Of a stretch of 64,000 bases of DNA, positions 48,254 to 59,944 are shown one piece after another; the stretch's first letter is position 1; every line of letters begins with the position of its first letter. Made by a program: the position numbers and the translations under genes. The notes under the pieces are model-generated. The model saw only the letters and a program-made list of their open reading frames with translations, had not been told where the DNA came from and searched no databases. Source of the DNA: Nitrospiria bacterium (GTDB lineage: Bacteria > Nitrospirota > Nitrospiria > JACQBZ01); assembly GCA_035498035.1 (NCBI GenBank), contig DATKAN010000010.1, positions 62,001-126,000 on the forward strand, written 5' to 3'.

Positions 48254-48444
48254 TATTTCTAATACATCGGGTTCTATAGCGACGGATGAAAAGGCATCGT
48301 GACGAACGGGTTGTGTGACGTTGTTCTGCGATGAGTCATGATCCTGCGTAGACTCTGACACGTACACCACCGGGTTCGGAGGGGTGCCTTTGCCGTTTCT
48401 AATGGCCATAAGGCCCCGTGTCCCGATGCCTCTTTGAAGATGAA

Positions 48445-50409
48445 ATGAAAATGACGCGTTCACCATTACAAGAAGTCAGGGTGCGATTTCCCGACCGGAC
48501 GGAGCGCCGTTTCAGCCATGACACGCTTTTGTCGGATGTGCTGGCTCAAGCCAAAGCGTCCTGGAAGGAAGCGCCCGTGGCCCTCAAGGTCAACGGAACC
48601 GTGATGGGTCTCGGCCAGCGTCTGTCCGACGCCTCTCCGGGAACGGATCCTTTTATCATCGAGCCGGTGTTTTTCTCCTCTCCCGAAGGGCAGGAAATCT
48701 ACCGCCACAGCAGCGCCCATATCATGGCTCAGGCCGTAAAAGAACTCTTCCCGAATGCCAAACTGGCCATCGGCCCCCCGATTGAAGACGGGTTTTATTA
48801 TGATTTCGACCTCGGACGGCCCTTTACACCCGAGGACCTTGACAAGATCGAGCGTCGGATGAAGGAGATCGCGGCCTCCCACTACGCTTTCGAGCGGAAG
48901 GTGCTTTCGAAACAGGATGCGATCCGTTTCTTTGAGGAGAAGGGCGAATCGTATAAGGTGGAACTGATCCGGGAGCTGCCGGAAACCGAACCCATCACGA
49001 TTTACGAACAAGGCCCGTTCGCCGATTTGTGCCGTGGGCCCCATGTCCTCTCCACCCAACACGTCTCGGCCTTCAAACTGCTCACCACCGCCGGGGCGTA
49101 TTGGCGGGGGGATGAACGAAACCCGATGCTGCAAAGAATTTACGGAACCTCCTTTCCGAGTCAGGAGGCCCTGGATCAACATCTGAAACGGCTTGAGGAG
49201 ATCAAGCGGCGCGATCACCGCCGGCTGGGAAGGGATCTGGATCTTTACAATGTCATGGATGAAATCGGCCCGGGGCTTGTGATCTGGCACCCCAAAGGGG
49301 CGCTGATCCGCAAACTGATCGAGGATTTCTGGAGGGAACAGCACCAGCGTCATGGTTATGACTTTGTTTACTCTCCGCACATCGCGCGCCTGGATCTTTG
49401 GAGGCAAAGCGGTCATCTGGACTTCTACCGAGAGAATATGTACGCCCCGATGTCCATTGAAGGGATCGAGTATGAACTCAAACCGATGAACTGCCCTTTT
49501 CACATCATGATCTATAAATCCCACCTCCGGAGTTACCGGGACCTTCCGATCCGCTTCGCGGAACTGGGCACCGTTTATCGCTACGAACGCTCCGGCGTCC
49601 TTCACGGCTTGATGAGAGTCCGGGGCTTTACACAGGACGACGCCCATCTTTTCTGCCGACCGGACCAGATCGAGGAGGAGATCCTCAAGGTTTTGGACCT
49701 TACGGTCTTTACCTTGAAGACGTTCGGATTCACCGAATACGATATCTATGTCTCCACCCGACCCGAAAAAGCGGTGGGCTCCCCAGAAAACTGGGAGCGG
49801 GCCACCTCGGCCCTGGAGTCGGCGCTCAAGACCAAGGGCATGGCTTACCGAATCGATCCCGGCGAGGGTGTTTTTTACGGTCCCAAGATCGACCTGAAAA
49901 TCAAGGACGTGCTCGGACGGGCCTGGCAATGCACCACCGTTCAGGTCGACTTCAATCTGCCGCAGCGGTTCAAGCTGTCCTATATCGGGGAAGACGGCAA
50001 GGAGCATCAGCCCATCATGATCCATCGCGCGCTCATGGGTTCGATCGAGCGGTTCTTCGGTGTGCTGATCGAGCACTATGCCGGCGCCTTTCCGCTCTGG
50101 CTCGCCCCGGTTCAGGTCAAAATCATGCCGATTACGGACCCGCAGCACGCTTACGCCGTCGACGTCGCCCGCCTGTTGACCGAAGCCGGTTTTCGGGTGG
50201 AAACGGATCCGCGAAACGAAAAGATCGGATTAAAAATCCGCGAAGCGGAAATGGCCAAGGTCCCCTACATGGTCATCCTCGGCGCGCGTGAAGCCCAGAG
50301 CCGGAAACTGTCTGTGCGCAAACGCAGCGGAGACAATCTCGGCGAGATGGACATCACCGCTTTTGTTGATCGGCTGAACGGTGAAGTCGGTCAACGAGTA
50401 TCATCCTAA
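48445..50409 (+). CDS. thrS: Threonyl-tRNA synthetase
   Basis: A 654-aa class II synthetase with full domain order: TGS domain (1-62), second N-terminal editing domain with HSSAHIMAQAVKELFP and the C-x3-H motif in DLCRGPHV (about 75-225), catalytic core with MNCPFHIMIYKSH and FTQDDAHLFCRPDQ, motif 3 region GSIERFFGVLIEHYAGAFPLW, and the anticodon-binding domain (KIMPITDPQHAYAVDVARLL). Several Met codons cluster at the start; I used MKMTRSPLQEV, nine codons after a possible GTG start. The 190-base region between tRNA-Val and thrS holds a GGGGTGCCTT/AAGGCCCC hairpin but no recognised T-box. First gene of the thrS-infC-rpmI-rplT cluster. Confidence 0.95.
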   Translation: MKMTRSPLQEVRVRFPDRTERRFSHDTLLSDVLAQAKASWKEAPVALKVNGTVMGLGQRLSDASPGTDPFIIEPVFFSSPEGQEIYRHSSAHIMAQAVKELFPNAKLAIGPPIEDGFYYDFDLGRPFTPEDLDKIERRMKEIAASHYAFERKVLSKQDAIRFFEEKGESYKVELIRELPETEPITIYEQGPFADLCRGPHVLSTQHVSAFKLLTTAGAYWRGDERNPMLQRIYGTSFPSQEALDQHLKRLEEIKRRDHRRLGRDLDLYNVMDEIGPGLVIWHPKGALIRKLIEDFWREQHQRHGYDFVYSPHIARLDLWRQSGHLDFYRENMYAPMSIEGIEYELKPMNCPFHIMIYKSHLRSYRDLPIRFAELGTVYRYERSGVLHGLMRVRGFTQDDAHLFCRPDQIEEEILKVLDLTVFTLKTFGFTEYDIYVSTRPEKAVGSPENWERATSALESALKTKGMAYRIDPGEGVFYGPKIDLKIKDVLGRAWQCTTVQVDFNLPQRFKLSYIGEDGKEHQPIMIHRALMGSIERFFGVLIEHYAGAFPLWLAPVQVKIMPITDPQHAYAVDVARLLTEAGFRVETDPRNEKIGLKIREAEMAKVPYMVILGAREAQSRKLSVRKRSGDNLGEMDITAFVDRLNGEVGQRVSS

Positions 50410-50466: not shown

Positions 50467-50985
50467 ATCGCGGTCAAACAGCGTGTCAATAACGAAATCC
50501 GGGTTCGGGAAGTCCGGGTCATCGGGGTCGAGGGAGAACAGCTCGGCGTCCTGCCGACGCGGGAGGCCATCGCCAAGGCCGCCGAACAGGGCTTCGATCT
50601 GGTGGAGGTGGCGCCGACGTCTCAGCCGCCCGTCTGTCGTATTATGGATTACGGAAAATTCAAATACGAACAGAACAAGAAACTCCATGCGATGAAACAG
50701 CATCAGAAGACGACGCATGTGAAAGAGATCAAATTGAGGCCCCACACGGACAAACACGATCTGGATTTCAAGATTCGTCATATTCGCGAATTTTTGCAGG
50801 CCAGTGATAAAGTCAAAGTGACGATGATGTTCCGGGGCCGGGAAATGGTGTACCTCGACGCCGGCAAGATGACCCTGGCCAAGGTCATCGAGTCCGTGAA
50901 CGATATCGGAATCATTGAACAACAACCCCGACTGGAAGGGCGCAACATGATCTTGATCCTGTCGCCCAAACCCCAAACCGCCTAA
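50467..50985 (+). CDS. infC: Translation initiation factor IF-3 with AUC start codon
   Basis: A 172-aa protein. No ATG, GTG or TTG precedes the conserved N-terminus; the frame begins at ATC with AAGGAGG eight bases upstream and reads VKQRVNNEIRVREVRVIG, the standard IF-3 opening. IF3-N has EAIAKAAEQGFDLVEVAP; the linker and IF3-C have PPVCRIMDYGKFKYEQNKK, HVKEIKLRPHTDKHDLDFKI and KVTMMFRGREMVY. IF-3 rejects non-AUG starts, so its own rare start codon provides negative feedback, as known for E. coli AUU. It lies 57 bases after thrS, in the usual order before rpmI and rplT. Confidence 0.93.
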   Translation: MAVKQRVNNEIRVREVRVIGVEGEQLGVLPTREAIAKAAEQGFDLVEVAPTSQPPVCRIMDYGKFKYEQNKKLHAMKQHQKTTHVKEIKLRPHTDKHDLDFKIRHIREFLQASDKVKVTMMFRGREMVYLDAGKMTLAKVIESVNDIGIIEQQPRLEGRNMILILSPKPQTA

Positions 50986-51127: not shown

Positions 51128-51325
51128 ATGCCAAAGCTAAAATCGCACAAAGGGGTGGCCAAACGGTTCAAGCGAACCGGAACCGGCAAGATCAAACACA
51201 AGCAAACCGGTAAGAGCCATCTGTTGACTCACAAAACCCGGTCCCGGAAGCGGCACCTCAGGGCCTCCGGGCTGGTTTCGAAGGCCGATCAACAGACGGT
51301 CAAACGCCTGTTGCCGTATTCCTAA
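51128..51325 (+). CDS. rpmI: 50S ribosomal protein bL35
   Basis: A 65-aa basic protein: MPKLKSHKGVAKRFKRTGTG, then KIKHKQTGKSHLLTHKTRSRKRHLR and a C-terminal VKRLLPY. This is the canonical bL35 sequence layout, and it is located between infC and rplT as in most bacteria. AACGGAAAGGA lies before the ATG. The following 217 bases contain a dispersed repeat and a structured AT-rich region before rplT. Confidence 0.96.
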   Translation: MPKLKSHKGVAKRFKRTGTGKIKHKQTGKSHLLTHKTRSRKRHLRASGLVSKADQQTVKRLLPYS

Positions 51326-51542: not shown

Positions 51543-51905
51543 ATGCCACGCGCAAAAGGAGGTCCAAAAACAAGAGCACGCCGAAAAGGCCGGCTGAAAC
51601 TGGCCAAAGGGTTTTACGGCGGGAAACACCGTCTTTTCCGGACGGCGACGGAGCTGGTGGACAAAGGCCGGCAATATGCCTATCGCGACCGGCGGCAACG
51701 GAAACGGGATTTTCGCCGTCTTTGGATCGTGCGGATCAACGCCGCCGTGTCCAATCACGGGCTGTCTTACTCGAAATTCATGGCCGGATTGAAAAAGGCC
51801 GGCATCGGGCTCGATCGAAAAGTCCTGGCCGATCTGGCCATCACGGATCCGCAGGGTTTTGCGAAGATCGCGGAAACGGCGAAGTCCAAGCTGGCCGCGG
51901 CTTAG
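51543..51905 (+). CDS. rplT: 50S ribosomal protein bL20
   Basis: A 120-aa protein with the full bL20 pattern: [87 protein letters not shown] and [24 protein letters not shown] lies shortly before the ATG. It is required for 23S rRNA folding and often controls rpmI-rplT translation. The downstream neighbour is not pheST in the usual direction: the gene ends 16 bases from the tail of an oppositely oriented archaeal-type pheT. Confidence 0.97.
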
Positions 51906-51921: not shown

Positions 51922-53640
51922 CTACGATTGAGGGGCCTGTATCAGCGATCCTTCGGGCGGAAAGTCCAATGCCAGCTCAAAAACCGCGCAGGGCATCGCG
52001 ATTTGCCAGTTCGCGAGGACCTGCGGATGAAGTTCGCCGATCAACCCAAGGTCACGGCCCCCGGCCACGATCTTTCCGACCCGTCCCTCGATGAAGGAGG
52101 GATGGGAGGCGGGCTCCAATTGATAGATCCCGCCCATATAGTACATCAACAGGTCCAGACAGGAATGAAGCTCCGAAAAGTTGGCCGCCGGATGGGCGAT
52201 CAGCGCGGCCAGTTTCAGCAGGGTTCGTGTTCCCTCGGGCGCGTTCCCGTCCGTGAGGGCCGTTTCGCCCGCCTCGAAGATCCGGTGGGGATAGAAGCTC
52301 TTCGAGCTGGCGGCCTCCACCCGCAACAGAGAAGGGACAAGGCTGCTCCGTAAGGCCGAGTAGGTCTGCGACATCACGTTTTCAACCAGGACCAGATCCG
52401 CTTGCATATCGGAGAGGGACATCCGGTCGACCGATTCTTCCCGATTCGTCAGGATATTTGAGATCACTTCCTGGAAACCCATTCCGATCATGGATTCCCT
52501 GACCCGATCCGAGACCTGTTCGATGGACGAAAGCCCTCCGAGCGTAAATTCGGTCGGCATCTCGGATTCAAAGCTTTCATAGCCCCGGCTGATCGCAAAA
52601 TCCTCCACCACATCCACCGGATGAAGCAAATCATCCCGGTAAGCCGGCACCGACACGGTCAGGCGGCGACCGCGGGTCCGAACGGTGTATCCGTAGGCCT
52701 TCAGGGTCGAAACGGCCGTCGGGGCCTCGATCGCTTCCCCCAAAGCCGCGCTCAGATGGTCCAGCGTCATTTCCATCGGCCTCGCCAACACGGCCGGCAT
52801 CGTAATCTTTCGTCCGTAATCCGTGGCATAAGGATAACGGACCTCGACCGGGTCGATCCCGGCGCCCCGGTCGGCGAGATTCGCCGCCAAGATATTCACG
52901 GTCAGGATCACCATGCGAAGATCGGTCCCGGTGACTTCGACAAACAGATCGCGGTCCCCGACCCGCACTTCGCCGACCTCGCGGCTGTTGATGATCGGCG
53001 GGAATGAGAGAACCTTGTCTTCCCGGTCGGCCAACAACGGATAGGCGGCCGCCCCGGATAAGATCCCGGCGTAGGTTTTTCCCTTGGGATGCTCCTTCAA
53101 GATCTCGGCCGGGGTCATCGACGATTCGGACCCGAGCGGGACGAACCGGGCTCCGTCGGGCTGAACCGTTTTGTACGTGACGGGAAAAGCGATCCGGGCC
53201 AGTCGATAAAGACCGATCGAAACCAGGTGACGTTTCCGTCCGAAACTCTCGCTCAGCTTTTCCTGGGTCTGGATCAGCTGGACCAGCGCTTCCCCGTCGA
53301 TGGACAGGCCGCGCGCGATGCAGGCTCCGATGTACGGTCGGACGCTTTTCAAGGGAGGCGAGACCTCAATGACGGCCGCGGGTTTCCTCTTGCCGCCGTA
53401 GAAGGGATACGGAACGCCTCTCCTCCGCAGATGCGTCTTGATCTGCCGGGCCACGCCCTCCACACACCACAGATCCGGCCGGTTCGTATCGTTCAGCTCG
53501 AGCTTCAGCTTTCCGGTCGATTCATCGTGCTCCTTGATCTCGCCTTTGACCAAGGGCAGCCGGTCGGCCAGTTCTGCAAGCGTCAGGGAGCGGCCGAGCA
53601 GACTTTCAAGATCCTTCATCTTGACCTGAATTGTCGGCAT
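51922..53640 (-). CDS. pheT: Phenylalanyl-tRNA synthetase beta subunit, archaeal/eukaryotic type
   Basis: A 572-aa protein, the length of archaeal PheT (about 550) rather than the roughly 800 of bacterial PheT. It lacks the N-terminal EMAP/tRNA-binding-type domain and the C-terminal ferredoxin-fold anticodon domain of bacterial forms. Landmarks: LELNDTNRPDLWCVEGVARQI, IGACIARGLSIDGEALVQLIQTQEKLSESFGRKR, PPIINSREVGEV, DVVEDFAISRGYESF and ISNILTNREESVDRM. These are the archaeal B1, B3/4 and B5 patterns. It follows pheS by three bases on the same strand and is convergent with rplT. The pair has evidently replaced the bacterial-type pheST normally found after rplT. Confidence 0.93.
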   Translation of the reverse strand: MPTIQVKMKDLESLLGRSLTLAELADRLPLVKGEIKEHDESTGKLKLELNDTNRPDLWCVEGVARQIKTHLRRRGVPYPFYGGKRKPAAVIEVSPPLKSVRPYIGACIARGLSIDGEALVQLIQTQEKLSESFGRKRHLVSIGLYRLARIAFPVTYKTVQPDGARFVPLGSESSMTPAEILKEHPKGKTYAGILSGAAAYPLLADREDKVLSFPPIINSREVGEVRVGDRDLFVEVTGTDLRMVILTVNILAANLADRGAGIDPVEVRYPYATDYGRKITMPAVLARPMEMTLDHLSAALGEAIEAPTAVSTLKAYGYTVRTRGRRLTVSVPAYRDDLLHPVDVVEDFAISRGYESFESEMPTEFTLGGLSSIEQVSDRVRESMIGMGFQEVISNILTNREESVDRMSLSDMQADLVLVENVMSQTYSALRSSLVPSLLRVEAASSKSFYPHRIFEAGETALTDGNAPEGTRTLLKLAALIAHPAANFSELHSCLDLLMYYMGGIYQLEPASHPSFIEGRVGKIVAGGRDLGLIGELHPQVLANWQIAMPCAVFELALDFPPEGSLIQAPQS

Positions 53641-53643
53641 GGG

Positions 53644-55215
53644 TTAGGGCCTCGCCCGCCTGGTCCGGATCAGGTCCAGATCGCTCGAGAAAAGATCGCG
53701 GATGTCCCCGATGCCCAGCGCGACCATCGCCATCCGGTCCAGACCCAGCCCCCAGGCAATCACGGGGACTTTGACTCCGAGCGGCGACGTGACCTCCGGA
53801 CGGAACAGGCCCGCTCCGCCCAGCTCCATCCAGCCCAGGCGGGGATGCTTGACATGCATCTCGACCGACGGCTCGGTGTAGGGAAAATAGGCCGGCAGGT
53901 ATTTGATTTCCGTCGCATGCGCCATTTCGGTCGCAAACAGTTTTAACAGACCCAACAACGTCCGGAATGTGATCTTCTCGCCCAGGGCGATCCCCTCGAC
54001 CTGGAAGAAATCGGGCGCATGGGTCGCATCGACCAGATCGTAGCGGAAGCAGCGGGCGATCGAGAAATATTTTCCGGGGATTCGGGGAGAGGCCGCCAGG
54101 GTCCGGGCCGAGACGGCCGTCCCCTGACTCCGGAGGACGAGGCGCTTGGCTCTTTCGGGATCGAAAGCGTAGCGCCATCCGCGCGAGCCGGTTTTCCAGC
54201 CCGACTCGTGCGTTTTGGCGACCTGGGCCGCATAGGGTTCGGGGAGGGACCCGACCCTTTTGGGACGATCGACGAAATAGACGTCGTGAATATCCCGCGC
54301 CGGGTGAAATTGGGGCATGAACAGCGCGTCGCTGTTCCAGAACTCCGATTCGACCAGCGGCCCGCGCATTTCCTGAAAGCCCATCGAGACCAGCCGGGTC
54401 TTGACGCTGTCGAGAAACTCCCGATAGGGATGCTTTCGCCCGGCGGCCGTCCGGGCGGGCTTGAGGCCGATATTATATTTTCGGAAGGACTTCCCCCGCC
54501 ACGCTCCGTCCTTGAGCAACTCCGGCGTGAGTTGGGCGATTTCATCGGCCCCGGCCGCTTCGGGGGTCCATCGTTCGACGAGGCCGCGTCCCAATTCAGT
54601 CAGAGCCAGGCGCTTGGATTTTTTCTCGGTTCGCTTTATGACCCCCCGGGTCTTCCACTGCTTTTCAAGACAATCATCAAGTAGATGCTTTTCCTCGGCC
54701 GACAATTCCGATTCATCGAGCGCCCCTGCGGCGGACCGCAAGCGCCTTAATAGGCCCGGAAGCACCGATTCAATCATCGACGGCAACGATGCGCCCGTCG
54801 GCTCCAGGATCCCGCCCGGTCCCATCCGAACCGTTTCATGATCTTTGCTTCGCAGATTTCCCAAGACCGTGCTGACTTCGGAGGACTCCAGATCCTCAAG
54901 CCGGGACAGGTCCTTTACCGTAACCTGCTGGCCCGCTTTCAGCCTGTCGAGAATTCGTTGTTCCGGCAATTCATGGTCCGCATATTTGCGGCCAAGCTCT
55001 GTAATGGATGAGAACCGCGTCACCCTTTCATCTTCGACCTTGATCACCCCTTTGGTGATGAGCCACCCCAGGGCCATCGAAAGGCGGGACTCGTCCAGGG
55101 CGGTTTCCCGGATCAATTCATGGTCCCATAATGCCGCACGGACCTTGAGCATCGCGAGCACTTTGCGCTCGAGCGGATGCAGACCGGATAGAAGCTGTGC
55201 GATGTCCTGCGACAT
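53644..55215 (-). CDS. pheS: Phenylalanyl-tRNA synthetase alpha subunit, archaeal/eukaryotic type
   Basis: A 523-aa protein, far longer than bacterial PheS (about 330-350). The first 200 residues are tandem winged-helix domains (LHPLERKVLAMLKVRAALWD; MALGWLITKGVIKVEDERV; ELGRKYADHELPEQRIL) as in archaeal and eukaryotic PheS. The class II catalytic core follows: HPYREFLDSVKTRLVSMGFQ, SEFWNSDALFMPQFHPARDIHD, motif 2 around YFSIARCFRYDLVDATHAPDFFQVEG, and motif 3 GLGLDRMAMVALGIGDIRDL. It charges tRNA-Phe as an (alpha-beta)2 enzyme with PheT. It has its own promoter (55248-55276). Confidence 0.94.
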   Translation of the reverse strand: MSQDIAQLLSGLHPLERKVLAMLKVRAALWDHELIRETALDESRLSMALGWLITKGVIKVEDERVTRFSSITELGRKYADHELPEQRILDRLKAGQQVTVKDLSRLEDLESSEVSTVLGNLRSKDHETVRMGPGGILEPTGASLPSMIESVLPGLLRRLRSAAGALDESELSAEEKHLLDDCLEKQWKTRGVIKRTEKKSKRLALTELGRGLVERWTPEAAGADEIAQLTPELLKDGAWRGKSFRKYNIGLKPARTAAGRKHPYREFLDSVKTRLVSMGFQEMRGPLVESEFWNSDALFMPQFHPARDIHDVYFVDRPKRVGSLPEPYAAQVAKTHESGWKTGSRGWRYAFDPERAKRLVLRSQGTAVSARTLAASPRIPGKYFSIARCFRYDLVDATHAPDFFQVEGIALGEKITFRTLLGLLKLFATEMAHATEIKYLPAYFPYTEPSVEMHVKHPRLGWMELGGAGLFRPEVTSPLGVKVPVIAWGLGLDRMAMVALGIGDIRDLFSSDLDLIRTRRARP

Positions 55216-55247: not shown

Positions 55248-55276
55248 ACGATACCTTCCGAGGGGAATTTTGTCAA
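55248..55276 (-). promoter_or_regulatory. Promoter TTGACA-17-TATCGT for pheS-pheT
   Basis: -35 at 55271-55276 and -10 at 55248-55253 on the minus strand; start of transcription near 55241, about 26 bases before the pheS ATG. Confidence 0.65.
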
Positions 55277-55321: not shown

Positions 55322-56332
55322 CTAAAACCGATACCCAATATTCGTGCCCAGGGTAAAGTCCGCCGCGGCGCCTTCCGGATTCGCGAAGTTTTCGATTCCG
55401 AACAGTTGGAAGAGGATGCGGGACTTGAAGCGATAATTAATTCCCCAAACGGATTCAAACACTCCATTATCCAGCACGCGGGCCCCCGTTCCGTGAAAGG
55501 GAGAGTTATAATAATCCAATTGCCCGACAAGGGAAAAGGAAGGTGTCCACATAAACTCGGCGGCCAGCGCGGCGGAATAAATCGCCCTCAGCGTCAGATC
55601 GGTCGGACCAAAATCGCCGCCCGGGAGGACCACGCTTTGATTTAAATAAAAGAGCCACCGACGGCCCAAGCTTTTCTGGAGCACAAGTCCCAGGCCGAAA
55701 TCCGACTTTCCCGAACCGAAAGCCTTTTCTAAATCCCCCGTCGAAAATTTAACGGCGACTCGCAGCGCCGCGGCCGGGGTTGCGGGCCCCTCCTGGAGGA
55801 CGAGATATTTGCCGCTCAAGGACACATCCCCCACCCCCGCTTGATGATCCTGGCCCGATACGATAACCGTTCCGTCCTGTATGATGGCATAGCCTCCGAA
55901 TGAACCGTCGTGAAATTTGATGCGATCCGGGTTAAGCGTGCCGAAGTCGTGTTCCACGCTCATTATAAAGGGATCCAGAAATCCCCCGTTTCTGTAATAA
56001 AACGGAATTTCCAGGCCGATCTCCGCCCGATCCGTGAAACCATACTTGAGGTGCAGGGCCGAACGGAACGTTTCAAATTTCAGCGTGGCATCGACCTGCG
56101 GGGTCGATTCACTCAGTATGGTGTTGCTCTCGGCCACCTCGAGGCTTACCTCAAACGAATCGCGGGGCAGCGTTGTGGCTTTTTCAGATGGAAGGGAGAG
56201 AAATAAGAGCTGGACGGGATTGTAGTTTCGGTTGGGAAAAGGCCCGCCTCCATCCACATACGGTTCGGCCAAGGAAAACCGATCCGGTCCCCAGCCCCAC
56301 AGGGCGCAGAAGAAAAGAAGACATAACTTCAT
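55322..56332 (-). CDS. DUF3187-family outer-membrane-type protein
   Basis: A 336-aa protein; I start at MKLCLLFFCALWGWG, whose signal peptide ends SLAEPY. The mature part begins GGGPFPNRNYNPVQLLFLSLPSE, the DUF3187 opening, followed by alternating-strand segments: FRSALHLKYGFTDRAEIGLEIPFYYRNGGFLDPFI, LGLVLQKSLGRRWLFYLNQSV, LVGQLDYYNSPFHGTG. It ends LGTNIGYRF, with a C-terminal aromatic as in outer-membrane barrels. The family is annotated only as an uncharacterised outer-membrane or transporter-like group. It stands between pheS and arsC with no obvious operon partner. Confidence 0.82.
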   Translation of the reverse strand: MKLCLLFFCALWGWGPDRFSLAEPYVDGGGPFPNRNYNPVQLLFLSLPSEKATTLPRDSFEVSLEVAESNTILSESTPQVDATLKFETFRSALHLKYGFTDRAEIGLEIPFYYRNGGFLDPFIMSVEHDFGTLNPDRIKFHDGSFGGYAIIQDGTVIVSGQDHQAGVGDVSLSGKYLVLQEGPATPAAALRVAVKFSTGDLEKAFGSGKSDFGLGLVLQKSLGRRWLFYLNQSVVLPGGDFGPTDLTLRAIYSAALAAEFMWTPSFSLVGQLDYYNSPFHGTGARVLDNGVFESVWGINYRFKSRILFQLFGIENFANPEGAAADFTLGTNIGYRF

Positions 56333-56554
56333 ACGCCAGAGGCCGATGAGCTCCCGGAACAGATTTCCCCTGATAACCCCGTTGATATCACGAACGTTCA
56401 GGATTCGCCCCATGGCCGAACATTATGCAAGCGGGAAACCCCTTGGAATCCAGTTGCCATTCAGGACATTTTTATCCTCTTCACGAAGTTAATCTATACT
56501 TATTGATTATAAATGATCTGAGGCGAAACCGCGACTGTGGGTCTGACGGAAGAA

Positions 56555-56905
56555 TTACAGGATTTGTTCAACATTTTCAGGGGGCCGACCCAGAGCGGCG
56601 CGACCTTTGGAGAGCACGATCGGCCGCTGGATCAGGATCGGATGCCGGACCATCGCCGCGATCAGGGCGGCGCGGGAGAGTTTCGGGTTTTCCAGTTTCA
56701 GTCTCTTGTAGACCTCCTCCTTCGTCCGAAGCAGCTCCCGCGGATCCATCCCGAGAAGCTTCAAGATCGCGTCGAGTTCTTTCTCGGTCGGGGGCGTCTT
56801 GAGGTACTCGACGACCTTCGGCTCGATCCCCTTCTTCCGGATCAGATCCAATGTCTTACGGGACGTTCCGCAGCGCGGATTATGGTAAATCGTTACGTCG
56901 GCCAT
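56555..56905 (-). CDS. arsC: ArsC-family arsenate reductase (glutaredoxin type)
   Basis: A 116-aa protein of the E. coli plasmid ArsC fold. The catalytic Cys12 lies in IYHNPRCGTSRKTLDLIR, followed by VEYLKTPPTEKELDAILKLLGM and the C-terminal RPILIQRPIVL-type segment with an arginine (HPILIQRPIVLSKGRAALG). It would reduce arsenate with glutaredoxin and glutathione, or a thioredoxin equivalent. It lies five bases after the kelch lipoprotein stop. No arsB or arsR is seen, so the role may be general thiol chemistry. Confidence 0.88.
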   Translation of the reverse strand: MADVTIYHNPRCGTSRKTLDLIRKKGIEPKVVEYLKTPPTEKELDAILKLLGMDPRELLRTKEEVYKRLKLENPKLSRAALIAAMVRHPILIQRPIVLSKGRAALGRPPENVEQIL

Positions 56906-56910
56906 AACGC

Positions 56911-57930
56911 TTATGGAATCGACGGTGTAAAGGTCTCGACCGTTCCTTGATCGTCTCCTCCAACGGCATAAAGGATCCCGTTCACCACGCCGGCCGCCAG
57001 CAAGGTCCTTCCGGTGGGCATCGGGTCCAGGGCGGTCCAGGTATTCGTCGCCGGATTATAGGCCTCGAGCCTTTTCGGCACCGTGTCGCCGGGCTGGATA
57101 TCCGGCAATTGGCCTCCAACGGCGTAAATAATCCCGTCGTTTTCCCCAACGGCCAGTCCGCCTCGTGCGGTGGGCATCGAGGTCTCGGGGGTCCACGTGT
57201 CCGTCCCTGGATCGAAGGCCTCGACCGTCGAAAGATTATTTGAACCGTCGGTGCTTCCTCCAACGGCATATAGGATATCGTTCGCCACGCCGACCCCGAG
57301 CAAAATCCGCTCGGTCGGCATCATGGTCTTCGATACCCAGGTGTCGGTCCCGGGATTGTATTCCTCGACCGGTGCCGGCGGGCTGGGTGCGATGACACCC
57401 CCAACAGCATAGATCCGGCCATTCACCACACCGACCCCCAGGCCATATCGCCCCGTGGACATCGAAGCCCTGGGTGTCCAACTATTGGCCACAGGATCGT
57501 AGGCTTCGACAGTAGCAAGAGTGCTCACTCCATCGCTCCCTCCGATCGCATAGAGGATGTCATGGCCATTGACATTGACGACCCCGACGGCCAGCCCCGA
57601 CCGTGCGGTTGGCATCGGGGGCTTCGCGGTCCATTTGTTCGTCGCTGGATCGTAGGCCTCGACGGTCGGGAGAAAATCTCCGACGCAGGTAGAACCGTTG
57701 CAGACGATGTCGTCTCCCCCAACCGCATAAAGGATGCCGTTCAAGACCCCGACACCCAGTCCCGTTCGCCACGTAGGCATCGGAGTCTTCGTGGTCCAGG
57801 CGCTGCCACTGCCTGGGCTGTTCTTCTGAGTTCCCCCGCCCAGGCAACCGGCCGGAAGACCGGAAGCGAGGACTACGGCCAATAGATAGGAAATTTTGAA
57901 TAAGATTGCAGATCGTCTCGGCCCCATCAA
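56911..57930 (-). CDS. Kelch-repeat beta-propeller lipoprotein
   Basis: A 339-aa protein with lipobox LPAGC (Cys29) and six kelch repeats of about 48 residues: MPTWRTGLGVGVLNGILYAVGGDD...VEAYDPATNKWTAKPPMPT and five similar units (MPTARSGLAVGVV; MSTGRYGLGVGVVNGRIYAVGG; MPTERILLGVGVANDILYAVGG; MPTARGGLAVGEN; MPTGRTLLAAGVVNGILYAVGG). Six blades suggest a six-bladed propeller exposed on the outer membrane or periplasm. The repeats are unusually similar, which implies recent duplication. It is cotranscribed with arsC (five-base gap). Binding partner unknown. Confidence 0.88.
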   Translation of the reverse strand: MMGPRRSAILFKISYLLAVVLASGLPAGCLGGGTQKNSPGSGSAWTTKTPMPTWRTGLGVGVLNGILYAVGGDDIVCNGSTCVGDFLPTVEAYDPATNKWTAKPPMPTARSGLAVGVVNVNGHDILYAIGGSDGVSTLATVEAYDPVANSWTPRASMSTGRYGLGVGVVNGRIYAVGGVIAPSPPAPVEEYNPGTDTWVSKTMMPTERILLGVGVANDILYAVGGSTDGSNNLSTVEAFDPGTDTWTPETSMPTARGGLAVGENDGIIYAVGGQLPDIQPGDTVPKRLEAYNPATNTWTALDPMPTGRTLLAAGVVNGILYAVGGDDQGTVETFTPSIP

Positions 57931-57960: not shown

Positions 57961-58635
57961 CTAAGAACCGACCGCACGTCGCATCTTCTGAATCGTGTCC
58001 TTGTAATCCTTGCTCTCGAAGATGGCCGAACCCGAAACCAGGATGTCCGCTCCGGCCTGGGCGATGGCCCCAACGTTTTCGACCTTGATGCCCCCGTCGA
58101 TCTCCAGCTCGACCTTCGCCCCGCGTTGATCGATCATCGTTCGGGCCCGCCGCAGTTTTTCCAAGGCGGACGGAATGAAGCCCTGGCCGCCGAATCCCGG
58201 ATTGACCGACATGATCAAGAGGAGATCCACTTCGCCCAGGATTTCCTCCACGCTCGAGAGCGGGGTGGCGGGGTTCAAGGTCACGCCGGCCTTCACGCCC
58301 TCCTCCTTGATCGATTGGATCGTCCGATGAAGATGAGGACAGGTCTCGACATGAACCGTGATATAGTTGCTCCCGGCCTTGATGAAGTCATGGATGAAAT
58401 CGTCCGGATTCGTCATCATCAGATGAACGTCCAGAGGCAGACGGGTCACCTTGCGGATGGCCTTCACGATCGGAGGCCCGATCGTGAAGTTCGGAACAAA
58501 ATGTCCGTCCATCACGTCCACATGGATCATATCGGCCCCGGCCTCCGTGACCTTGGCGATCTCCTCCGCCAAATGGGCAAAGTCCGCCGAGAGAATCGAG
58601 GGGGCGATCTTTTTGGACCCGGCCGTCGTCGTCAT
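57961..58635 (-). CDS. rpe: Ribulose-phosphate 3-epimerase
   Basis: A 224-aa TIM-barrel enzyme interconverting D-ribulose-5-phosphate and D-xylulose-5-phosphate. APSILSADFAHLAEEI, MIHVDVMDGHFVPNFTIGPPIVKAI (catalytic Asp and metal His), PLDVHLMMTNPDDFI, LLIMSVNPGFGGQGFIPSALEKL, and VELEIDGGIKVENVGAI followed by GADILVSGSAIF are all canonical. Last gene of the def-fmt-htpX-rsmB-rpe unit; its ATG begins one base after the rsmB stop. Confidence 0.95.
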   Translation of the reverse strand: MTTTAGSKKIAPSILSADFAHLAEEIAKVTEAGADMIHVDVMDGHFVPNFTIGPPIVKAIRKVTRLPLDVHLMMTNPDDFIHDFIKAGSNYITVHVETCPHLHRTIQSIKEEGVKAGVTLNPATPLSSVEEILGEVDLLLIMSVNPGFGGQGFIPSALEKLRRARTMIDQRGAKVELEIDGGIKVENVGAIAQAGADILVSGSAIFESKDYKDTIQKMRRAVGS

Positions 58636-58636
58636 C

Positions 58637-59944
58637 TTAGGCTCCTTTCGACTGTTTGATCAGCTTCGCGGCAAAAAAGTTGTCCATTTGACAGGAATTC
58701 AATACGGTATCGAGGTAGCCTTCCGGCGTCACCAACTCCGGCGCTTCCGACCAGAACGTCCGCAGAGAATCGACGCGAAATTCTCGGTGCCCGGCCAGAA
58801 AGGCGCCGATCACCTCCTCGTTTTCCTCGGGCTCGGTCGTGCAGGTACTGTACACCAACACGCCGCCGGGTTTCAAGCGCGGGGAAACCCGGTCAAGGAT
58901 TTTCGACTGGAGGGCGGCCAGCCTCCCGATCAGGGCCTCGGTTTTATACCACTTGGCCTCCGGATTCCGGCGCAGTATTCCCAGTCCGCTGCAGGGGGCG
59001 TCGATCAGAATCCGGTCGTACAGGACCCGGCCCAGCGCCTCGAGGCTTCGGGTCGCATCGACCGCGACCGGACGGACGGAACCGAGACCCAGCCGCGCGG
59101 CGTTTTGAGCGACCCGTTCCAGCCGTTTCGGATCGGCATCGGCCGCCGTGATCTCGCCCCGATCGCCCATCAGCTCGGCCAGGTGCGTGCTCTTCCCCCC
59201 CGGCGCGGCGCATGCGTCGAGGAGGCGTTCCCCGGGTTTCGGATCGACGGTAAAACCCACGAGCTGCGCGGCTTCGTCCTGGATGTAGAAAGCGCCCCGG
59301 CGATAGGCCGCCAACTGTCTCAGATCCGCCACCCCGCGGAGCATCAGGCCGGCGGATGATACCCGGCAGGGCGTCGCCTCTATCCCCTCGCCTTTCAATT
59401 CGGCTGCCAGGGCCTCGCGCGCGGCACGAAGCGAATTGACGCGCACGGTGACCGGAGGAATTTCATTGTTCGCGACGCAAAGCGCAACGGTCCGTTCCGG
59501 CCCCAGTCTTCCGAGCCAGCGCTTCACCAACCATTCGGGATGGGAATATTTTACCGATATATGAAGGACCGGATCGTCGGACGGATCCGGCAGGGGAATC
59601 GTTTCGGCCCGCGTCAGGGCCCGCAGGACGGCATTGACGAACCCGGCGACCGATTTTCCGCCGAAGGTTTTGGCCAAACGCACGGACTCGTCCACGGCCG
59701 CCGAGGCGGGAACGCGGTCCAAAAACAGGAGCTGGTAGCTCCCCAACCGCAGCAGATTTTTCAATTTGACGGATTGTCGTTGGCGGGCCCGTGCGGCGAA
59801 GCGGCCGATCGCCCAGTCCAGATAGCCGCGACGTCGCAGGACGCCGTAAACCAGCTCGGTGATGAAGGCCCGGTCAAGGGGGCTCAGGTCGCTCGCGCCG
59901 AGCGCCCGTTCCATGACAGGATCGGACGACTTCGCCGACTCCAC
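58637..59944 (-). CDS. rsmB: 16S rRNA (cytosine-967-C5) methyltransferase
   Basis: A 435-aa protein from the GTG used here. NusB-like N-terminal RNA-binding domain (about 1-130), then the SAM methyltransferase with RLLDACAAPGGKSTHLAELM, ILIDAPCSGLGILRRNPEAKW (first catalytic Cys) and VLVYSTCTTEPEENEEVI (second Cys). It modifies C967 in 16S rRNA. The conserved opening helix (ARRVAWDILCQVES) is encoded upstream of the GTG in the same frame, with only ATC codons (59995, 59992, 59989) available as starts after the htpX stop, and AAAGGA five bases before the last one. Translation may therefore begin at 59989. Confidence 0.9.
   Translation of the reverse strand: MESAKSSDPVMERALGASDLSPLDRAFITELVYGVLRRRGYLDWAIGRFAARARQRQSVKLKNLLRLGSYQLLFLDRVPASAAVDESVRLAKTFGGKSVAGFVNAVLRALTRAETIPLPDPSDDPVLHISVKYSHPEWLVKRWLGRLGPERTVALCVANNEIPPVTVRVNSLRAAREALAAELKGEGIEATPCRVSSAGLMLRGVADLRQLAAYRRGAFYIQDEAAQLVGFTVDPKPGERLLDACAAPGGKSTHLAELMGDRGEITAADADPKRLERVAQNAARLGLGSVRPVAVDATRSLEALGRVLYDRILIDAPCSGLGILRRNPEAKWYKTEALIGRLAALQSKILDRVSPRLKPGGVLVYSTCTTEPEENEEVIGAFLAGHREFRVDSLRTFWSEAPELVTPEGYLDTVLNSCQMDNFFAAKLIKQSKGA

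Follow-up and report, generated by a model that had tools for sequence, protein, structure and literature searches.

An archaeal/eukaryotic-type phenylalanyl-tRNA synthetase next to rplT in a Nitrospiria genome and in much of its phylum

In the 64,000-nucleotide stretch of Nitrospiria DNA analysed here (the window, on contig C10 of a 2.67 Mb genome that is 98.96% complete), the genes thrS, infC, rpmI and rplT are followed by pheS and pheT, which point the opposite way and are of unusual size for a bacterium. This raises the question of which kind of phenylalanyl-tRNA synthetase (PheRS) the pair encodes, whether it is the only one in the cell, and whether it displaced a native bacterial pair in place. 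Archaeal PheRS in bacteria is reportedly a spirochaete story, usually told as a single transfer. The features of the site are listed in Table 1.

Table 1. Features around the pheS-pheT pair, in window coordinates
Feature	Coordinates	Strand	Description	Evidence
pheT, archaeal/eukaryotic-type PheRS beta subunit	51922-53640	-	572 aa: B1, B3/B4 editing, B5, CLM; no B2, no FDX-ACB	TIGR00471, Pfam domains, 2cxi and 3l4g matches
pheS, archaeal/eukaryotic-type PheRS alpha subunit	53644-55215	-	523 aa: N-terminal winged-helix-like units (~1-220), class II catalytic core (~230-520)	NF003210, PF01409, motifs, model of N-terminus
sigma-70-like promoter candidate, TTGACA-17-TATCGT	55248-55276	-	immediately upstream of pheS	
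thrS	48418-50409	+		TIGR00418, 747 bits
infC	50602-50985	+	as listed; start codon uncertain	sequence and position
rpmI	51128-51325	+	65 aa	sequence and position
rplT	51543-51905	+	fixed landmark of the site	sequence and position; TIGR01032 finds rplT in relatives
rpe	57961-58635	-	partner upstream of pheST, conserved within the class	TIGR01163, 321 bits; synteny
rsmB	58637-59944	-	upstream of rpe, same direction	TIGR00563, 397 bits; synteny

The original prediction was exact in its lengths and coordinates (PheS, 523 aa; PheT, 572 aa; 51922-55215). Its description of pheS and pheT as convergent holds for the pair with respect to rplT, the two stop codons of rplT and pheT being separated by 16 nt, but not for the two genes with respect to each other, which are in tandem with pheS upstream and 3 nt between them. 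The promoter candidate is argued for by its position and not by its count, as 1.3 chance matches were expected in the region. GC3 of pheS (0.74) and pheT (0.75) resembles that of the neighbouring genes, and such native-like composition indicates that the acquisition was not recent. Some details of the surroundings differ between relatives. Three genes lie between pheS and rpe in the window (55322-57930), encoding an outer-membrane-like protein that matched no NCBIfam model, ArsC, and a kelch-like repeat protein, whereas pheS adjoins rpe directly in other families of the class. In two close relatives rplT and pheT are spaced by unassigned DNA of ~0.9 kb (L067, 10374-11269) and ~1.2 kb (L068, 2298-3540), compared to 16 nt in the window.

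Family models placed both subunits in the archaeal/eukaryotic type. PheT matched TIGR00471 (pheT_arch) over its full length with 503 bits (cut-off 283), while TIGR00472 (pheT_bact) gave 119 bits, for the C-terminal part only and below its cut-off of 403, and PheS matched NF003210 (PRK04172) with 572 bits over residues 11-520. Bacterial PheRS has a beta subunit of ~800 aa with B8 that scores above the TIGR00472 cut-off, and with 119 bits the window PheT falls outside it. Both subunits have instead the layout of the archaeal/eukaryotic enzyme, i.e., an alpha subunit of ~500 aa with an N-terminal DBD/winged-helix extension and a beta subunit of ~550-600 aa without B8 and B2, with family scores that exceed both the curated cut-off and the score of the bacterial model. 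Pfam domains found in PheT were only B1, B5, and CLM, and the domain search detected neither FDX-ACB (B8) nor the tRNA-binding (B2) domain, in agreement with the predicted lack of bacterial terminal domains; PF01409 was matched in PheS. The winged-helix repeats foreseen at the N-terminus of PheS were also recovered, as ~220 residues for which the model shows helical/winged units, mostly at pLDDT 75-90. The whole PheS model was weak in the catalytic part (mean pLDDT 64.6, pTM 0.39), and only its N-terminal part was used. Among solved structures, the archaeal PheRS of P. horikoshii and the eukaryotic cytosolic enzyme came nearest, and over its full length the PheS model fitted human cytosolic PheRS alpha best (E 1.3e-18), with a TM of only 0.29 and parts misplaced. 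The class II motifs and Phe pocket of PheS are intact (FRYD, FPYTEPS, and GLGLDR), and the editing-site positions of PheT (L203, S212, E235, and T237) are conserved in the alignment; their P. horikoshii counterparts we take to be L202, S211, D234, and T236. As published, archaeal/eukaryotic PheRS carries three DBD units at the N-terminus and lacks B8 (PMC3275996), with which the N-terminal winged units and missing B8 of the window pair agree. Positions 51922-55215 thus encode a complete archaeal/eukaryotic-type PheRS.

Among 296 sampled Nitrospirota genomes, pheT was of the archaeal type in 165 and of the bacterial type in 119, counting matches above the cut-off, and no genome had both. In the class of the window genome (families f1-f11), every member with a clear call was archaeal-type; a small number of genomes had fragments or received no call. 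Outside the class, f12, f13, f16, f19, f20, and f37 were archaeal-type, and the remaining families with a clear call were bacterial-type. PheT of named Nitrospirae/Nitrospiria contigs was 79-86% identical to that of the window, and a plasmid search with the PheRS query gave weak matches to the shared C-terminal part only, none covering 80% of the query. The archaeal-type swap is thus ancient, common to the whole class and several related families, and not peculiar to the window genome. A literature search for PheRS in Nitrospira, Nitrospirae, Nitrospirota, and Leptospirillum found no report of an archaeal enzyme, which is weak evidence as most subscription journals lay outside the search. With archaeal PheRS known in spirochaetes, this large and old Nitrospirota set appears to be a new addition to the inter-domain replacements.

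Gene order was compared across the same families. In most bacterial-type genomes examined, thrS-infC-rplT-pheS-pheT run in one direction as in E. coli, as had been assumed for the normal continuation of thrS-infC-rpmI-rplT. The convergent arrangement of thrS-infC-rplT with pheT-pheS, often followed by rpe-rsmB, recurs in many class families and, outside the class, in f13, f19, and f20. The archaeal pair directly follows rplT in the same direction in f37. In f12 it is still joined to rpe-rsmB but is not beside rplT, and it is likewise separated from rplT in f16 and in those genomes of f7 and f6 that were checked. Bacterial pheST is kept at the canonical site in f17, f18, and f24. Unlike other bacterial-type families, f14 (L111, L112, and L221-L223) has bacterial pheST away from thrS-infC-rplT, which may be a later re-acquisition.

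Two explanations confined to the window genome were weighed against these data. The pair might be an additional copy, accessory or for resistance, in a cell that also has a normal bacterial PheRS, since second copies of PheRS are possible in principle. However, no bacterial pheT was found in this 98.96%-complete genome, in answer to the suggestion that a second, bacterial pheST be looked for, and the archaeal and bacterial types were mutually exclusive in 284 genomes above the cut-off; we consider the accessory copy refuted and its chance negligible, save for the ~1% of the genome possibly missing. The genome contained one match to the PheS core besides a weak one, and two weak matches tried as a second PheRS were rejected, being HisRS (TIGR00442, 497 bits) and MetRS. 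From the only-copy status of the pair and its conservation, we infer that it functions as a working PheRS. It is also very improbable that the window lineage itself swapped a native bacterial pheST for an inverted archaeal pair. The location of the pair exactly at the canonical site adjoining rplT speaks for such a local event, but several further class families, as well as f13, f19, and f20 outside the class, have the identical convergent gene order, every clear call in the class is archaeal-type, and the composition is native. All of this speaks against a local event, and we count it as refuted by synteny and survey together.

The rplT site is therefore the usual home of either PheRS type, but the steps of the original swap are recorded in no genome seen. 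For the ancient event, displacement in place is a plausible course; it is clearest in f37, the only clean same-site, same-direction swap observed. Since the pair has links to rpe-rsmB and to rplT alike, and is off rplT in f12, f16, and the checked f7 and f6 genomes, the first landing may have been either in place with a subsequent inversion, or by the pair joining an rsmB-rpe unit that abutted rplT. In-place displacement, as originally read from the position of the pair, stands at the phylum level, where a bacterial pair is found at rplT in most bacterial-type relatives and an archaeal pair in many archaeal-type ones. It does not stand as an event of the window genome, since the replacement is ancient, mostly vertical, and off rplT in some families.

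Phylogeny of the two subunits linked the phylum to spirochaetes. In the PheT tree (57 rows), all phylum sequences were monophyletic (98/99) and grouped with ten spirochaetes as their sisters (100/99); of the sampled archaea, Aenigmatarchaeota came closest. In the PheS tree (50 rows), the joint clade with spirochaetes had 100/100 and the phylum clade a modest 84/74. The predicted archaeal ancestry and the parallel with spirochaetes were thus supported by both subunits, which joined the spirochaetes, apart from the sampled archaea. Archaeal sampling was thin (18 loci, no Thermococcales) and the bacteria covered were those of this phylum and the spirochaetes, so the sisterhood may be an effect of sampling. 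On the RpoB tree (42 rows), the single-gene species backbone used here, 20 archaeal-type rows formed a clade (93/96), while f37 was placed beside a large bacterial-type group (93/98) and f16 beside f14 (91/71). A single clade of all archaeal-type rows was rejected on RpoB (AU p 0.0017), which implies further exchange inside the phylum or several losses. RpoB of f20 (L158 and L159) is an open frame of ~1725 aa on a long branch, with an apparent large insertion between model positions ~220 and ~260.

These trees bear on two further explanations. Spirochaetes and Nitrospirota could have received their genes in two separate transfers from related archaea, appearing as sisters only because the true donors were unsampled. 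Thin sampling and the long stem of the spirochaete group would fit this, yet the joint clade in both subunits, obtained with limited sampling, and the FRYD form of motif 2, which most sequences of both groups have and which is replaced by FRPD in most archaea, argue for a common origin, and we consider two transfers rather unlikely. Somewhat less likely still is a single gain in the phylum ancestor followed by several losses to bacterial pheST, in which f16 and f37 would not be later transfers. It would account for the RpoB placement of f16 and f37, which have bacterial-type families as neighbours and do not belong to the main carrier clade, and for the f14 pheST away from rplT, as expected of a later arrival. 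Against it, both PheRS trees join f16 with f37 as sisters (100/100 and 100/99) even though RpoB rejects their pairing (AU p 0.013, for a pair picked after viewing the trees), and in f17, f18, and f24 the canonical site is still occupied by bacterial pheST.

The reading we prefer, with a probability of about 0.9, is that the pair is the sole working PheRS of the cell, of archaeal type, acquired by an ancestor in the phylum with loss of bacterial pheST, inherited mainly vertically since, and reading a bacterial tRNA. The activity of the enzyme, its donor, the direction of transfer, and the steps of the swap are what we infer within this reading. The pair would be the only phenylalanine--tRNA ligase of the cell, a predicted (alpha beta)2 enzyme in which PheS activates Phe and charges tRNA-Phe and the B3/B4 region of PheT presumably removes wrongly attached Tyr. 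The ancestor would have gained pheS and pheT together, either from archaea or via a bacterium already carrying them, spirochaete genes being the sisters, and the bacterial pheST normally found after rplT would then have been lost. Inheritance in the class and in f12, f13, f19, and f20 was probably vertical in the main, accompanied by one or more later exchanges within the phylum (f16/f37) or else by several losses.

The tRNA-Phe genes of 26 genomes (17 with the archaeal-type and 9 with the bacterial-type enzyme) were examined. With a search pattern that contained U20 and allowed three mismatches, U20 and the GAA anticodon (G34 A35 A36) were found in all genomes of both types, and U59 in 17 of 17 archaeal-type and in all but one bacterial-type genome. 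The tRNA of f16 (archaeal-type, L190/L191) is identical over 73 nt to that of an f14 genome (G003, bacterial-type, L166). tRNA-Phe has therefore stayed bacterial whichever enzyme is present: U20 and U59 are identity elements in E. coli, and G20 is used in the archaeon A. pernix (PMC9976931). As the tRNA did not follow the enzyme, adaptation must have been on the side of the enzyme, unless its recognition was sufficiently broad; lacking the B8 domain that binds the anticodon in bacterial PheRS, it would have to accept the native bacterial tRNA-Phe. A review states that PheRS-tRNA pairs of the archaeal/eukaryotic and bacterial types do not cross-react (PMC3275996), and identical tRNA-Phe genes served by one or the other enzyme type form a natural experiment on this point, which makes exchange of an essential synthetase without change of its tRNA a directly testable question. 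That one tRNA is paired with two types of enzyme is the most useful part of this result. The same PheRS clade through much of a second phylum also changes the single-transfer history of the spirochaetes. More tentatively, and somewhat short of an even chance, a single archaeal PheRS may have entered Bacteria only once, be common to spirochaetes and much of Nitrospirota, and have been re-tuned to bacterial tRNA-Phe without B8, so that both types replaced each other over one unchanged tRNA.

Spirochaetaceae PheRS is the closest known parallel in the trees. Archaeal PheRS has been described in Borrelia, Treponema, and Spirochaeta, with alpha subunits of 513-528 aa, beta subunits of 514-573 aa, and Thermococcales as the proposed relatives of the donor (PMC3191353). 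Like the window pair, it has archaeal/eukaryotic subunit sizes, replaces the bacterial type, and is encoded by adjacent pheS and pheT; FRYD is shared by most phylum and spirochaete sequences. It differs in belonging to another phylum, in a PheT identity of 39-42% (full-length spirochaete matches), and in the position of pheST, which is not near rplT in the spirochaete stretches examined. Archaeal PheRS (P. horikoshii beta N-terminal part, 2cxi; Aenigmatarchaeota loci) shares the family models and aligned editing positions, while the window enzyme must serve a tRNA-Phe with U20 in place of the A. pernix G20. Human cytosolic PheRS (3l4g), whose beta subunit was aligned over 51-557, differs in sequence much more strongly than the spirochaete enzymes do. 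Bacterial PheRS (E. coli, T. thermophilus, and bacterial-type Nitrospirota families) has the same reaction and class II core and occupies the rplT-pheS-pheT site, but its alpha subunit is ~330-350 aa without N-terminal DBD units and its beta subunit ~650-810 aa, normally with a C-terminal B8. In most bacterial-type families of the phylum (L115-L130), PheT is ~650-720 aa and its match starts near TIGR00472 position 157, which suggests that it lacks the N-terminal B2 (EMAP-like) region; full-length bacterial PheT was observed in f14, f17, and one f27 genome.
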